Shown here piece by piece: positions 28,908 to 33,972 of a stretch of DNA of 34,493 nt. The stretch is taken from assembly GCA_028288515.1 (NCBI GenBank), contig JAQBNP010000094.1, forward strand, positions 1 through 34,493, written 5' to 3'. Positions within the stretch are counted from its first letter, which is position 1. Each line of letters opens with the position of its first letter. The notes beneath the pieces were generated by a model, which was not told the DNA's origin, made no database searches, and worked only from the letters and a program-made list of their open reading frames with translations. This stretch comes from Flaviaestuariibacter sp. GTDB lineage: Bacteria > Bacteroidota > Bacteroidia > Chitinophagales > Chitinophagaceae. The position numbers were made by a program, and so were the translations under genes.

Positions 28908-30065
28908 CTACAAAACCCCTTTGGTTGATGGCAGGTAATCTTTCAGCGGATCACGCTTGACAGCCATCTTGATCGCCTTTGCGAACGCCTTGAAGATCGC
29001 CTCGATCTTGTGATGCTCATTATCCCCGCGGCACTCGATATTCAGGTTGCACTTCGCTGCATCGGAGAATGATTTGAAAAAATGGAAGAACATCTCCGTG
29101 GGAACGTCGCCAACGCGCTCGCGCCCGAAATGAGCGTTCCAAACGATCCAGTTGCGCCCCCCGAAATCCAGCAGCACCTTGGCCTCAGCCTCGTCCATCG
29201 GCAATGCAAAGCCGTAGCGCTCAATGCCGCGCTTATTGCCGAGCGCCTGGGCCATTGCTTCGCCAAGCGCAATGCCGGTGTCCTCGACGGTGTGGTGCTC
29301 GTCGATCTGCAGGTCTCCACTTGCTTCAATGACCAGGTCAATGCCGCCATGACGGGCGATCTGGTCAAGCATATGGTCGAAGAAATGAAGGCCGGTTTTG
29401 ATGGAAGCCTTACCTGTCCCATCAAGGTCAAGGTCGACGCGGATCTTCGTCTCAGATGTGTCGCGGCTATGTGATACCTGGCGCTTCCCCCCTTTCAAAA
29501 ACTCGTAGATCGCCTGCCAGCTCTGGGTTTCAAGTGCAACGACCTTCGCGAGCTCTTCCCGGCTGTCTGATATTTCGGCGCCACCTAGGTCAGGATTATT
29601 CTTGAGCCAGATGGCCTTGCATGCGAGGTTCCTCGCCAGCTGCACGTCGGTCACCCGGTCGCCGATCACGTAAGACCCGGCGATATCGTAAGCGGGGTTG
29701 CCCAGATAGTTTCCAAACATACCGGTGCCCGGCTTCCGGGTTGGCAGGTTCTCTTCCGGCATGCTCCGGTCGATCAGCTCTTCTTTGAATAAAATCCCTT
29801 CATTAGCGAAGCTTCCCATCACCAGGTTGTGTACGGGCCAAAAATCCTCTTCCGGAAATTTGTCCGTGCCAAGCCCGTCCTGGTTACTCACAAGCACCAG
29901 CTCAAAATCGAGCTCTTTGGCGATGCGGCCCAGCCACGTAAAGACATGCGGGTAGAAAGACAGCTTCGCGAAAGAATCGATCTGGTAGGTGGGCGGGTAT
30001 TCCTGGATCATCGTGCCGTCGCGGTCAATGAAGAGGACTTTTTTTGGAATCGTTTGGTTATCCAT
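28908..30065 (-). CDS. hisB: Bifunctional histidinol-phosphatase / imidazoleglycerol-phosphate dehydratase
   Basis: This 385-residue fusion performs two histidine-synthesis steps. The N-terminal HAD phosphatase has the nucleophile motif FIDRDGT (Asp14, Asp16), VSNQDGLGT, a Lys in TRKPGTG and the acidic end [12 protein letters not shown]. The zinc loop of the E. coli enzyme (CPHxxxxxCxC before RKP) is absent; [15 protein letters not shown] stands there. The C-terminal dehydratase (from about residue 190) has [14 protein letters not shown] and [14 protein letters not shown] metal-binding segments and the second HHK in [15 protein letters not shown]. It is the last gene of hisGDCB and overlaps hisC by eight bases. 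Its stop is two bases from the convergent amidohydrolase stop. Confidence 0.97.
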
Positions 30066-31110
30066 TGTATTGCTGTAATGCGGTGATCAATTGGCGGTCC
30101 TGTACATCGGTGCCCACCGTGATGCGCAGGCTGTCCTCGCAAAGGGCCACAGTGCTCCGGTTTCGCACGATGATGCCTTTTGTTTTCAGGTATTCGTACA
30201 CGGCCGTCGCGTTCTGCATTTTGACGAGGACAAAGTTCGCGTCCGACGGGTAAACGGTTTGAACGAAGGGCAGGTCCGCCAGTGCTTTCACCAGAATGCC
30301 CCTCTCCTTCACGGTCTCGCGGATCATTTCGTTGACGTCCTCGAGGTTGTCGAGTGCCTTCAGTGCCAGCTCCTGCGTAGCGGCGTTGATATTGTAGGGA
30401 GGCTTGATCGTATTGAGAACGCGGATGATCTGGGGCGATGCGAAGGTCATGCCCAGGCGAAGGGCCGCCAGTCCCCAGGCCTTTGAGAATGTCTGCATTA
30501 CAACCAGGTTCGGGTAGTCCGCCAGCTCGGAAACAAAGGACCGGTACCGGCTGTAATTGATATACGCTTCGTCCACAACCACGATCCCTTCAAAATTGTT
30601 CAGCACCACTTCGATGTCTTCACGGTCCAGGCTGTTGCCCGTCGGGTTGTTGGGAGAACACAGAAAGATCAGTTTCGTATGCTCGTCGATCGCCCCTTCA
30701 ATGCCCTCGAGATTGAGCTGGAAATCGGGCAGCAGCGGCACTTCCGTTACGGGCACGTCGTTGATGTTCGCATACACTTCGTACATCCCATAGGTCGGCG
30801 GGCAGATGATGATCCTGTCTTTCTGCGGATCGCAAAAGGCGCGGATGAGGAGGTCGATGCATTCGTCGCTGCCATTGCCCAGCAGTATTTTTTCAGCATC
30901 GACGGACTTGATGCCGGCAATCTTTTTCTTCAGGTCCCACTGCAATGGATCGGGGTAGCGGTTATACCATTTCGTCAGCGGCGACCCATAGCTGTTCTCG
31001 TTGGCATCAAGAAAGACCGACGCGGTTCCGCGGAATTCGCTGCGCGCCGATGAGTAGGGTTTGAGGTTGCGGATATTGGCCCGCAACAGCTTATCAAGGT
31101 CAAAGTTCAT
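30058..31110 (-). CDS. hisC: Histidinol-phosphate aminotransferase
   Basis: This 350-residue class I/II aminotransferase converts imidazole acetol phosphate and glutamate to histidinol phosphate. The PLP lysine is Lys210 in [10 protein letters not shown]. Other motifs are [11 protein letters not shown], the SPNNPTGN stretch (about 152-159) and [10 protein letters not shown] with Asp180. It has full length for HisC. It overlaps hisD by 11 bases at its start and hisB by eight at its end, as expected for a tightly coupled operon. Confidence 0.97.
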
Positions 31111-32401
31111 GATCGGAGTTTGTTGTTTTTTCCGCGAGCCGCACGGACACAGCAGCCGCGTGTCCGCGGAGACCTTCCGCTTCCGCCATCGCTACAACCG
31201 ATGGGCCAATGCCACGCAACCCTTCCCGCGTCAGGCGCTGGTAGGTTATTTTTCGAACGAAGCTGTCGACGCTGACGCCGCTGTAGGCCCGCGCAAACCC
31301 GTTTGTCGGCAAGGTGTGATTCGTTCCGCTGGCATAATCGCCAACGCTTTCGGGTGTGTAGTGTCCGAGGAAAACAGAGCCTGCATTAACGACCCGGTCA
31401 CCAACACGTTCGGCACTGGCGCAGCTCAGGATGAGGTGTTCCGCGGCATATTCGTTAACAAGGTCGATCGCTTCGGAAAGGCTTTGGACAAGGACGGCCG
31501 TGCTGTTGGCCAGTGCACGATTTGCCGTCTCCTTCCGGGGCAGTGCGGCAACCTGGGCAGCAAGCTCACGCACGACGGCGATTACGACCGCCTCGCTTGT
31601 GCTGACGAGCAGGACCTGGCTGTCGGCGCCATGCTCCGCCTGCGAAAGCAGGTCAGCGGCGACGAAGGAGGGGTTGGCAGTCTCATCGGCGAGCACGCAC
31701 ACTTCGCTTGGCCCGGCCGGCATGTCGATCGCGATCCCATCCATCTGGACCAGCTGCTTTGCCGCCGTTACGTATTGATTGCCCGGCCCAAAGATCTTGG
31801 AAACGGCGGGGATCGTTTCCGTACCGTAGGCCATGGCAGCGATCGCCTGGGCGCCACCGGTTGCAAAGACCTTCGAGACGCCCACAAGACCGGCTGCAAA
31901 CAGGATGGCGGGGTGTACCGACCCGTCGGTTCCAGGTGTGCAGAGAATGACCTCGCGGCAACCCGCGAGCCGCGCGGGGATGCCCAGCATCAGCACGGTT
32001 GAAAAAAGCGGGGCGCTGCCGCCCGGTATATAAAGTCCAACCCGCTCGATGCCCACGCTTCGGCGCCAGCACGTGACACCGGGCATGGTCTGGATGGGGA
32101 CAGGATCGCTCAGCTGGCTGCGATGGAAGGCTTCAATATTGCGCGCCGCCAGGCGGATCGCGTCCCTGAGTTCGTTGGAAAGCGATTCCCCCGACCAGCC
32201 GATCGCCTCCGGGCCTACCTGGAGCGCTATCGGTGCGCCCCCCTCAAAACGGGTTGCAAGATCACGAAGCGCGGCATCGCCACCCGTGCGGACCTGGCCG
32301 ACGATCGCCCGCACAGATTCGATCACGGCCCGGTTATCAACGTAAGGACGCTTCAGAAGCGCGGTCCACTCTGTCCGCGGTGGGTTCACTACGATCTTCA
32401 T
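31100..32401 (-). CDS. hisD: Histidinol dehydrogenase
   Basis: This 433-residue enzyme makes the last two oxidations from histidinol to histidine with NAD+ and zinc. Family signatures include VGLYIPGGSAPLFSTVLM, the IFGPGNQYVTAAK stretch, GPSEVCVLADETANP, and LLSQAEHGADSQV, whose Gln and His are zinc ligands. EHLILSC and the C-terminal TNHTLPTNGFARAYSG complete the active site. It starts eight bases after the hisG stop and overlaps hisC by 11 bases. Length and order are normal. Confidence 0.97.
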   Translation of the reverse strand: MKIVVNPPRTEWTALLKRPYVDNRAVIESVRAIVGQVRTGGDAALRDLATRFEGGAPIALQVGPEAIGWSGESLSNELRDAIRLAARNIEAFHRSQLSDPVPIQTMPGVTCWRRSVGIERVGLYIPGGSAPLFSTVLMLGIPARLAGCREVILCTPGTDGSVHPAILFAAGLVGVSKVFATGGAQAIAAMAYGTETIPAVSKIFGPGNQYVTAAKQLVQMDGIAIDMPAGPSEVCVLADETANPSFVAADLLSQAEHGADSQVLLVSTSEAVVIAVVRELAAQVAALPRKETANRALANSTAVLVQSLSEAIDLVNEYAAEHLILSCASAERVGDRVVNAGSVFLGHYTPESVGDYASGTNHTLPTNGFARAYSGVSVDSFVRKITYQRLTREGLRGIGPSVVAMAEAEGLRGHAAAVSVRLAEKTTNSDHEL

Positions 32402-32409
32402 GACTCTTC

Positions 32410-33264
32410 TTAAAGGATCATTTTTTCAATGGGTACAACGAGGATTCCCTGTGCACCGGCATGCTTGAGCGCTTCGATCTTTTCCCAGAACTCCTCTTCC
32501 GGTAGAACGCTGTGAACCGAGCTCCAGCCGGTTTCGGCAAGCGGCAGCACGGTCGGGCTTTTCATCCCGGGAAGCAGTGAGAAAATGGTTTCGAGCGCAT
32601 CATTCGGCGCGTTGAGAAGAACGTATTTGTTCTTCTTTGCCGTCTTCACCGCGTTGATCCGAAAAAGCAAACGGTTGAGCAGCGCAACTTTGTCCTCGTC
32701 GAGGCGCTCCTGGCTGATGAGCACAGCCTGGCTTTCGAGGATGACCTCGACCTCTTTCAGACCGTTCATGAACAGGGTCGAACCGCTGCTGACAAGGTCG
32801 CAGACGGCATCGGCCAGGCCGATCCCCGGCGCGATCTCGACGGAGCCGCTGATCTCGTGGATCTCGGCCTCGATGCGGTGCTTGCGGAGAAACTGCGCGG
32901 TGAGAAAGGGGTAGCTGGTTGCCAGCTTTTTACCCTGCAGGAATTTGACATCGTTATAGGATTCATTGCGCGGGATCGCAACGGACAGGCGGCATTTGCC
33001 AAAGCCGAGCGGCCGCACGATCGCCACGTCCTTGCATTTTTCATACAGCACATTTTCCCCGACGATCCCGATATCGGCAACACCGTCCTGGACGTATTGT
33101 GGGATATCGTCATCGCGCAGAAAAAAGACCTCGAGAGGAAAATTCTCGGCGGACGTCTTCAGGAGGTTTCCCCCGTTCTTAACGGCGATGCCGCAGTCGT
33201 TGAGCAGCTTGATGCTGTCCTCTGAAAGTCGACCTGATTTTTGTATTGCCAGCTTGAGCTTCAT
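32410..33264 (-). CDS. hisG: ATP phosphoribosyltransferase, long (HisG-L) form
   Basis: This 284-residue enzyme catalyses the first step of histidine synthesis, PRPP plus ATP. The N-terminal catalytic part starts KLAIQKSGRLSEDSIKLL and includes the PRPP-binding stretch ISGSVEIAPGIGLADAVCDLVSSG. The C-terminal part (about 210-284, FSLLPGMKSPTVLPL to AGAQGILVVPIEKMI) is the ACT-like regulatory domain of the long form, through which histidine inhibits the enzyme. Being the long form, it needs no HisZ partner. It is the first structural gene after the attenuator; the ATG at 33264 lies 6 bases after the terminator T/A-rich tract. Confidence 0.97.
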   Translation of the reverse strand: MKLKLAIQKSGRLSEDSIKLLNDCGIAVKNGGNLLKTSAENFPLEVFFLRDDDIPQYVQDGVADIGIVGENVLYEKCKDVAIVRPLGFGKCRLSVAIPRNESYNDVKFLQGKKLATSYPFLTAQFLRKHRIEAEIHEISGSVEIAPGIGLADAVCDLVSSGSTLFMNGLKEVEVILESQAVLISQERLDEDKVALLNRLLFRINAVKTAKKNKYVLLNAPNDALETIFSLLPGMKSPTVLPLAETGWSSVHSVLPEEEFWEKIEALKHAGAQGILVVPIEKMIL

Positions 33265-33270
33265 ATCGGG

Positions 33271-33302
33271 AAATTAAAAAGGCTCACCACCCGGTAAGCC
33301 TT
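33271..33302 (-). terminator. Attenuator terminator before hisG
   Basis: In RNA sense, AAGGCUUACC (33302-33293), loop GGGU, GGUGAGCCUU (33288-33279) form ten base pairs (one of them U-G), followed by UUUUUAAUUU to 33271. A full intrinsic terminator sits between the leader peptide and hisG, six bases before the hisG ATG, where it can only act as an attenuator. Confidence 0.9.
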
Positions 33303-33337
33303 CAGTTCGTTTCATGTACACAAACGCCGTGCTTACC
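33293..33337 (-). promoter_or_regulatory. Antiterminator pairing of the his leader
   Basis: GGUAAGC (33337-33331) at the end of the leader reading frame is an exact complement of GCUUACC (33299-33293) in the 5' arm of the terminator. The pairing would block the terminator. A small hairpin CGUUU-N9-AAACG (33326-33308) lies between the two strands and brings them together. The 5' strand contains the UAA stop of the leader (33335-33333), so a ribosome finishing the leader covers it and a ribosome stalled at the His codons does not. Confidence 0.75.
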
Positions 33338-33386
33338 CTCGGGAGAAGGAATGCGCATGATGGATCTGTACAAATGATGTTGACAT
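33333..33386 (-). CDS. hisL: Histidine operon leader peptide
   Basis: A 17-codon reading frame encodes MSTSFVQIHHAHSFSRG, with His codons at positions 9, 10 and 12. It lies between the his promoter and the terminator that precedes hisG. The peptide has no role as a protein; its translation senses the supply of charged tRNA-His. When that is low, ribosomes stall at HHAH, leaving the strand that carries the stop codon free to form the antiterminator. The frame is also open further upstream, but only beyond the promoter. The ATG is five bases after the -7 box, with no room for a ribosome-binding site. Confidence 0.88.
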   Translation of the reverse strand: MSTSFVQIHHAHSFSRG

Positions 33387-33391
33387 CGGTG

Positions 33392-33423
33392 CAAAAATAT
33401 GAGCGGAATCGTTTCCGCCAAAA
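33392..33423 (-). promoter_or_regulatory. Promoter of the his operon
   Basis: On the minus strand TTTTG (33423-33419), exactly 19 bases, then TATTTTTG (33399-33392). Both boxes and the spacer fit the Bacteroidota consensus TTTG-N19-TAnnTTTG without mismatch. The transcript start is expected within a few bases of 33387. Confidence 0.8.
33403..33418. repeat. Exact inverted repeat inside the his promoter spacer
   Basis: GCGGAA (33403-33408), TCGT, TTCCGC (33413-33418). The arms are perfect complements and fill the spacer between the -33 and -7 boxes, a position where a bound regulator would exclude RNA polymerase. No known operator is recognised. Confidence 0.45.
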
Positions 33424-33552
33424 GTTTTCTGATCCCCGGACCGACTTCGAAATGCATGAATTATCGATTCTTTAAGAGGCGAACTGCGGGGGTCGCCCAA
33501 CTTTTGCAATGCTTTCACCGTCTCACAGGTGAACTTTACACAAACCTTCAGC

Positions 33553-33972
33553 ATGAGGAAGATCGCATTCAGCCTGGCTCTGATCCTGGTAAGCCTTTTT
33601 GGGAAATCCCAGAAGATCGAGTCCATCTATTTTAACCTGTACACTGACAGCCTCAAGAAAGGTTTCTACAACTATATCAACGTCGACGGCCACTCCACGG
33701 ACGACCGCTGGTTCCCGCTCGACTCGACGACGATCAGGCTCACGACGAACGGCGGGACATTCAAAGGCAACAGCCTGTTCATTGACAGCAGCTATACCGG
33801 GGAAACGGTGACGGTCAAAGCCGTTCTGCGCAGCAACCCCGCCGTCTGGAAAGAAACAGTGATCTATATCCGCCGTCGCGGCTTCGACGAGCCCCTCAAG
33901 ACCGCCGAAGAGATCCTGGATGAAATGCGGCGAAGCGGCGGCAAGACAAAGGTCAAAACGAAAAAATCCTAG
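33553..33972 (+). CDS. Small secreted protein, unknown function
   Basis: The ATG at 33553 opens a signal peptide (MRKIAFSLAL, cleavage after GKS, mature Gln20), giving 139 residues; the in-frame ATG at 33529 would add eight residues before it. The mature part looks like a short beta-sandwich: IESIYFNLYTDSLKKGFYNY, then WFPLDSTTIRLTTNGGTFKG and ETVTVKAVLRSNPAVWKETV. It ends in a basic tail (KTKVKTKKS). I do not recognise a family. It is divergent from the his operon, whose promoter and spacer repeat lie about 130 bases upstream. No clear promoter of its own was found. Confidence 0.7.
   Translation: MRKIAFSLALILVSLFGKSQKIESIYFNLYTDSLKKGFYNYINVDGHSTDDRWFPLDSTTIRLTTNGGTFKGNSLFIDSSYTGETVTVKAVLRSNPAVWKETVIYIRRRGFDEPLKTAEEILDEMRRSGGKTKVKTKKS

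Follow-up and report, generated by a model that had tools for sequence, protein, structure and literature searches.

Upstream of hisG, at positions 33271-33399 of the window (the whole 34,493-nucleotide stretch of Flaviaestuariibacter sp. DNA analysed here), lies what is very probably a ribosome-mediated transcription attenuator of the hisGDCB operon, made of four mutually complementary segments. The observation of a his attenuator at this place, which goes back to a sequence-only reading, is confirmed: the coordinates and the main pairing given for a leader frame with His-His-Ala-His, a terminator and a seven-base pairing check out, the end of the T-rich tail does lie six bases before the hisG ATG (33264), and sequence comparison supports the call of a ribosome-mediated switch with the leader stop codon in its antiterminator strand. 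The parts of the element, the mutual exclusivity of its two states, their covariation and their spacing can all be read from the sequence and from its comparison with relatives. Behind the leader, as assigned with Pfam, stand hisG and hisD, then an aminotransferase at the place of hisC, and finally hisB with its two domains:

32410-33264, minus strand: hisG, first gene of the putatively regulated operon (Pfam HisG and HisG_C)
31100-32401, minus strand: hisD (Pfam Histidinol_dh)
30058-31110, minus strand: probable hisC, a class I/II aminotransferase (Pfam Aminotran_1_2 and place in the operon)
28908-30065, minus strand: hisB, HAD phosphatase and IGP dehydratase (Pfam IGPD; Hydrolase_like barely above the cut-off)

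A 147-aa ORF without a Pfam match (33529-33972, plus strand) is divergent from the his leader.

Leader peptide, terminator and antiterminator

The family sample comprised 117 Chitinophagaceae genomes, 92 of them with hisG (window included), and the upstream regions compared are those of 80 relatives plus the window. The window's place in this family agrees with its nearest named HisG sequences, which belong to Flaviaesturariibacter flavus (77%), Flavisolibacter and further Chitinophagaceae, in a comparison that may leave out records of the window's own genome. The segment table covers 71 of the 75 leaders found (G013, G109, G001 and G075 left out), and alignment A1 covers a different 71 (G050, G001, G075 and G051 left out). 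In the window the element is laid out as follows:

33333-33386, minus strand: leader ORF of 17 codons, MSTSFVQIHHAHSFSRG (ATG 33386-33384, stop TAA 33335-33333)
33367-33372, minus strand: 5' strand of helix P0, TGTACA (covariation; in the window's minimum-energy fold)
33351-33362, minus strand: control codons CAT CAT GCG CAT (His-His-Ala-His), from the sequence
33341-33349, minus strand: segment 1 region, CCTTCTCCC, degenerate in the window (UUACC-like in most relatives)
33331-33337, minus strand: segment 2, GGTAAGC, antiterminator 5' strand, which contains the stop codon and pairs with 33293-33299 (GCTTACC)
33320-33325, minus strand: segment 2b, GTTTGT, 5' strand of a second antiterminator helix (covariation and window fold)
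33315-33320, minus strand: 3' strand of helix P0, TGTACA (covariation and window fold)
33305-33310, minus strand: segment 3b, ACGAAC (window fold and covariation)
33278-33303, minus strand: terminator stem of 11 pairs, its 5' arm holding GGCTTACC (terminator scan)
33293-33300, minus strand: segment 3, GGCTTACC, terminator 5' arm (segment table and covariation)
33281-33288, minus strand: segment 4, GGTGAGCC, terminator 3' arm (helix 3:4 is 99.1% paired over 71 sequences)
33271-33280, minus strand: T-rich tail TTTTTAATTT, whose first three bases also pair in the stem (sequence)

The window leader clusters three His within four codons; when the intergenic stretch was shuffled in dinucleotide blocks, 11 of 2000 versions held an ORF of 30 aa or fewer that opens with ATG and has such a cluster. 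The stronger proof of a leader is its conservation, as a His-rich leader precedes hisG in 75 of the 81 family regions, window included. The sequence-only reading had proposed that the regions upstream of hisG in relatives be compared; there the His codons, the terminator and the antiterminator are conserved, with compensatory changes. The 75 leaders carry three (4 leaders), four (20), five (38), six (9) or seven (4) His codons, so that the window has the lowest count, and typical family peptides read MKINIHIHHHHFISNG or MKISMHIHHHHHFLPNG. Counted from its first base, the last His codon begins 16 nt before segment 2 in 40 of 71 leaders, the window among them, and 13-21 nt before it in 65. The leading edge of a ribosome stands about 12-13 nt ahead of the codon in its A site, and for this reason a ribosome stalled on the last His codon would cover segment 1 and not segment 2. 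As a side observation, the His codons of 71 leaders are CAT in 295 cases versus CAC in 54, while the starts of the hisG genes behind them use CAT 22 and CAC 27 times; this excess may stem from pairing with P0 and 2b or from codon speed.

Among the six family loci with no such leader, one region is cut by a contig end. Two others (L018 of G097 and L049 of G037) have open frames of 149 and 83 codons that end 13 nt before hisG and resemble each other at the end, as though promoter and leader had been replaced by another gene. A further two (L038 of G111 and L040 of G016) share a 231-base stretch before hisG that is 74% identical, and a different control element may stand there.

In the window the leader TAA sits within GGGTAAGC, and 29 nt separate it from the terminator stem. 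An intrinsic terminator lies between the leader and the first gene of the cognate operon, and its fold (-16.8 kcal/mol, z -4.7) was matched in stability by none of 200 shuffles. A simple terminator scan of the stretch, by itself, is no evidence, because it found 3 sites where 2.7 were expected from shuffles. The antiterminator excludes this terminator and has its 5' strand just downstream of the control codons. RNAalifold, run on a MAFFT alignment of 71 sequences, returned the terminator only, and the remaining helices were therefore tested as named structures. In the terminator state, 84.0% of cells are paired against at most 45.9% in slid versions, and in the antiterminator state 82.0% against at most 50.3%, the named structures having been drawn by eye from the same sequences, which biases this comparison in their favour. 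The covariation scores of the two states (0.276 versus 0.190 in shuffles, and 0.224 versus 0.177, respectively) exceed those of all 500 shuffles, which, like our Fisher tests, ignore relatedness; the number of pairs changed on both sides was reached by 12 of 500 shuffles for the terminator and is not exceptional for the antiterminator, for which 79 of 500 reach it.

At the level of single helices, the paired share of 2:3 is 96.8% in 71 family sequences. Segment 2 opens with a base that forms, with its segment 3 partner, G-C in 41 of 71 rows, G-U in 15 and A-U in 5, with 10 unpaired, and when segment 2 starts with A the partner is U in five of six rows. Helix 2b:3b, which lengthens the antiterminator and forms in the window fold, has 67.6% of cells paired and eight of its nine pairs changing on both sides. 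Helix P0 joins bases around the first His codon to those after segment 2, with 72.8% of cells paired over 71 sequences and six of eight pairs changing on both sides. In relatives, segment 2 reads GGUAAGC or GGUAGGC, and GGUGAGC in six of the 71 rows; segment 3 reads GGCUUACC or nearly so, segment 4 is GGURAGCC-like, and segment 1, directly after the His codons, is mostly UUACC or UUGCC. Because segment 1 resembles segment 3 and segment 2 resembles segment 4, each segment can pair with its neighbour.

The position of the stop codon is less constant than the pairings. It falls inside segment 2 in a single register, two bases after the segment's first base, in 49 of 71 leaders. In 6 it precedes that base by 1-6 nt, and in 16 it follows it by 9-28 nt. 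The claim that the UAA lies inside the antiterminator strand thus describes a real and common arrangement, but a dispensable one and not a requirement. In eight relatives (L028, L034, L037, L060, L062, L069, L071 and L074) the leader passes through segment 2 in a different reading frame and ends 21-28 nt beyond the segment's first base, which may be another way of building the same switch. Whenever the stop lies further downstream, the ribosome would leave 1:2 free to close behind it.

We also folded the RNAs under a ribosome mask of 13 nt (an assumption), scoring the 2:3 pairing just after segment 3 is made. With the ribosome stalled on the last His codon, the predicted 2:3 probability exceeds 0.5 in 65 of 71 sequences, as compared to 22 of 71 with no ribosome and none of 71 with the ribosome at the stop codon; the respective values for the window are 1.00, 0.29 and 0.00. 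At equilibrium, the full-length stalled RNA often still favours 3:4 (mean 0.76 over the 71 sequences, 0.35 in the window), and because this is so once segment 4 has been made, the switch, if it works as proposed, must be kinetic.

How many segments take part is a point on which our reading departs from the earlier one, which had called the element simpler than the four-segment enteric attenuator, that is, a three-segment switch with no protector hairpin. The window taken alone gives this idea some room. Its segment 1 matches segment 2 at best in four of five bases (33351-33347), its local hairpin, in which CCUUC (33349-33345) pairs with GAGGG (33340-33336), has a z of only -0.36 and is equalled by 67 of 200 shuffles, and with no ribosome the 2:3 probability is close to that of segment 2 pairing with its upstream side (0.33). 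Among the relatives, by contrast, 58 of 71 have a segment 1 that pairs with each of the five bases tested in segment 2. If the codons that lie between the last His and segment 2 are exchanged for synonyms drawn at pooled usage, 33.1 (sd 3.2) such cases are expected; helix 1:2 is 74.3% paired on alignment A1, which aligns segment 1 poorly. Helix P0, which would support segment 1, is present in the window as well, and we consider a three-segment switch unlikely. The weak extra hairpin that had been described is indeed present in the window, in a slightly different register in the best fold; since the window match extends to only four of five bases, we take this hairpin to be a degenerate segment 1.

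His-rich leaders before hisG also occur in further sets of loci. In a set of named loci that overlaps the family set, 76 of 80 pass the His rule, and 74 remain once two that have no segment 2 motif and look spurious (L164 and L190) are set aside. Outside the family, 66 genomes of the class carried hisG and 60 regions were examined: under a looser length rule, 56 of them hold an ORF of 8-35 codons in which His occurs three times or more, counting several leaders that look weak (G146, G161, G170 and G268). A model built from the 71 family sequences only, R1, matched 39 of these 60 hisG upstream regions in sense and 6 in antisense at E<=0.01. When 400 kb of further DNA of five family members was scanned with the same model, nothing reached E<=0.1 and two matches had E-values of 0.2 and 0.54. 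In search of a second copy in the window's genome, the next best match after the window reached 35.1 bits (E 0.011), with no Rfam match at that place. Rfam at its gathering score gave no match in the window, and at E<=1 it gave four sub-threshold matches in 10 loci, none of them to a His leader; these (Phe_leader, Thr_leader, SurA and ctRNA) were taken as chance. As for other amino-acid operons, the window's genome, which is 84% complete, gave no ilvD or trpE family match. A SAM riboswitch (RF00162, 70.3 bits) stands before homoserine dehydrogenase on contig 160 of that genome (L230, 900-1011, plus strand).

Promoter spacing and the start of the leader RNA

The leader RNA should be leaderless or nearly so, judging from the position of a predicted promoter upstream of the leader ATG:

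33419-33422, minus strand: TTTG, -33 promoter element, 19 nt before the -7 box
33392-33399, minus strand: -7 box TATTTTTG of a Bacteroidota sigma-A promoter (sequence; consensus and position as described in PMC9723704)
33387, minus strand: predicted +1, one nt before the leader ATG (from the box position of -12 to -5 in PMC9723704)

In Flavobacterium psychrophilum the -7 box occupies positions -12 to -5 (PMC9723704), and a box-to-start spacing of 4 therefore puts the start codon at +1. The earlier reading was silent on promoter spacing. All 75 family leaders have a promoter box (TAnnTTTG) whose end lies 4-20 nt upstream of the start; the box is exact in 70 and of a looser form in 5. Each leader was taken to begin at the first in-frame start codon that follows the box, a rule that favours short spacings. 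On this basis 15 leaders have a spacing of 4, another 5 (the window among them) a spacing of 5, 39 one of 6-10 and 16 one of 14-20, so that the start codon is predicted at +1 in 15 of 75 and at +2, behind a 1-nt UTR, in the window, and the spacing is 10 or less in 59. For comparison, among 155 long genes from five family members, with starts set at the ORF's most upstream ATG, 36 are preceded by an exact box, 6 of them at a spacing of 4-10 and none at 4; the exact-box leaders number 56 of 70 at 4-10 (Fisher p 3e-10 against these genes) and 15 of 70 at 4 (p 0.002). Where the spacing is at least 7, position -3 carries an A in 34 of 53 leaders, which matches the Kozak-like preference described in F. 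johnsoniae (PMC6847099).

A longer 5' UTR, made from an unrecognised upstream promoter with the TAnnTTTG box unused, appears distinctly unlikely, even though the transcription start is a predicted one and the start codons were chosen with the box in view. In 70 of 75 regions an exact box lies no more than 40 nt from the leader start, as opposed to 1 of 75 in the interval from -140 to -100, and a TTG occurs 17-24 nt before the box, at the place of the -33 element, in 59 of 75. No exact box was found closer than 4 nt, the spacing at which the AUG would be +1, in a family search run with no lower bound. The initial family and named-set searches sought boxes at least 2 nt from the first-chosen start; in the named set this gave a spacing of 4 in 19 leaders and none below, three exact boxes at a distance of 31-43 nt, and 11 leaders that lack one up to 60 nt. 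For the 60 regions of the class, with leader starts left unrefined, an exact box is found within 50 nt of the start in 39, at 4-37 nt. Only 9 of these are at 10 nt or less, and near-leaderless starts are for this reason best supported for Chitinophagaceae.

A reading that we consider probable is that of a class-wide his-attenuator lineage of Bacteroidia, with the Chitinophagaceae version built as one ruler from promoter to stop: a start at the 5' end or within about six bases of it, the His codons, 16 nt to segment 2, and the stop inside it. On such a ruler the ribosome would bind the bare 5' end while this emerges from RNA polymerase, and coupling would be set from the first base.

Proposed switch

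We infer ribosome stalling, termination and the transcription start from the arrangement described above, and propose that they combine as follows. RNA polymerase would start at the leader AUG or within a few bases of it, as the promoter spacing suggests, and a ribosome would load on the RNA 5' end and read the His codons. If charged tRNA-His is scarce, the ribosome would stall with its edge covering segment 1 and halting just before segment 2, whereupon 2 (with 2b) could pair with 3 (with 3b), the terminator would be blocked and the operon transcribed. If histidine is plentiful, the ribosome would reach the UAA in segment 2 and cover this segment, and 3:4 would end transcription before hisG. 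When no ribosome is present, P0 and 1:2 would tend to hold segment 2 and make termination the default, a tendency predicted to be weak in the window.

A hairpin that hides the hisG start region and controls translation instead of transcription, the U-run being incidental, would be an alternative with some precedent, as attenuators acting on translation are known (PMC9413887), and the window stem ends only 13 nt before the hisG ATG. This short distance is not kept in the family: with hisG starts assigned by rule, segment 4 ends anywhere from 14 to 206 nt (median 35) before hisG in 71 relatives, and in spite of this the hairpin is kept, as is the T-run in the loci shown, which makes translational control very improbable. 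Finally, that an ordinary terminator of upstream transcription happens to follow a chance ORF can be dismissed almost with certainty, for although terminator-like sites are as common in the stretch as in shuffles, it is strongly opposed by the conservation, within the family and outside it, of the His codons and the two alternative pairings.

Known attenuators and implications

As a ribosome-mediated transcription attenuator, the element would resemble the enterobacterial his operon attenuator (the his leader of E. coli and Salmonella), which we take to be the one listed in Rfam as His_leader, RF00514, in its His-rich leader peptide, its stalling logic and its mutually exclusive terminator and antiterminator before hisG. 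It differs from that system in having no Rfam match, in four segments that are near-copies or complements of one GGUAAGCC motif, in a stop codon that is usually inside segment 2, and in a leader start predicted at or near the 5' end. The leaders studied here have 3-7 His codons, whereas the enterobacterial leader has seven (PMC1183508).

Much is known of leader-peptide attenuation in Proteobacteria, and there are reports of it from Actinobacteria and Firmicutes (PMC1262725, PMC2965389, PMC9413887). The his attenuators (PMC9413887) and hisS/hisZ leaders (PMC2965389) of Firmicutes were, like ours, His leader peptides found by comparison, but they belong to other lineages, and the term "Bacteroid" is absent from the main texts of both papers. 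Within the phylum, Bacteroidota sORFs reminiscent of leader peptides have been described (PMC7366714), and a paper on the his genes of the superphylum mentions attenuation once, in its introduction on regulation (PMC8305728). A precedent is in F. psychrophilum, for which strong clues for leader-peptide attenuation upstream of amino-acid operons were reported, together with a structured 5' element upstream of hisG that has no Rfam hit (PMC9723704). It concerns the same gene and phylum as the window's, and we liken the two by description and not by sequence; the available part of that report describes the element with no mention of segments, covariation, stop register or start spacing (PMC9723704). 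An attenuator RNA that begins at the ATG of its leader ORF, and is hence a leaderless leader, is known in trpL (rnTrpL) of Sinorhizobium meliloti (PMC7298713); that case concerns tryptophan in an alphaproteobacterium and its start is established, whereas the start proposed here is predicted from promoter spacing. Among the titles and opening lines of abstracts that our literature searches brought up, none described a Chitinophagaceae his leader or a leaderless Bacteroidota attenuator, and Lopatovskaya et al. 2010 (cited in PMC4833913) may list Bacteroidota his leaders. In view of this prior literature, the attenuator is of a known kind, and its compact design and predicted near-leaderless start are the new part.

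Such a start is uncommon in those species of the phylum that have been mapped. Leaderless mRNAs amount to 5.5% in F. psychrophilum (PMC9723704), 3.7% of 5' UTRs are under 10 nt in B. thetaiotaomicron (PMC7366714), and 87% of predicted leaders exceed 10 nt in F. johnsoniae (PMC6847099); Bacteroidota are also described as devoid of Shine-Dalgarno sequences (PMC6847099). If the attenuator works as read here, transcription and translation must be coupled at the his operon, and a ribosome could be loaded in time by means of the predicted near-leaderless start. The element is a candidate RNA family, new to Rfam as far as the window and the 10 loci searched are concerned, and its many natural versions would provide a ready family of sensors with which to test coupling and leaderless initiation in Bacteroidota.
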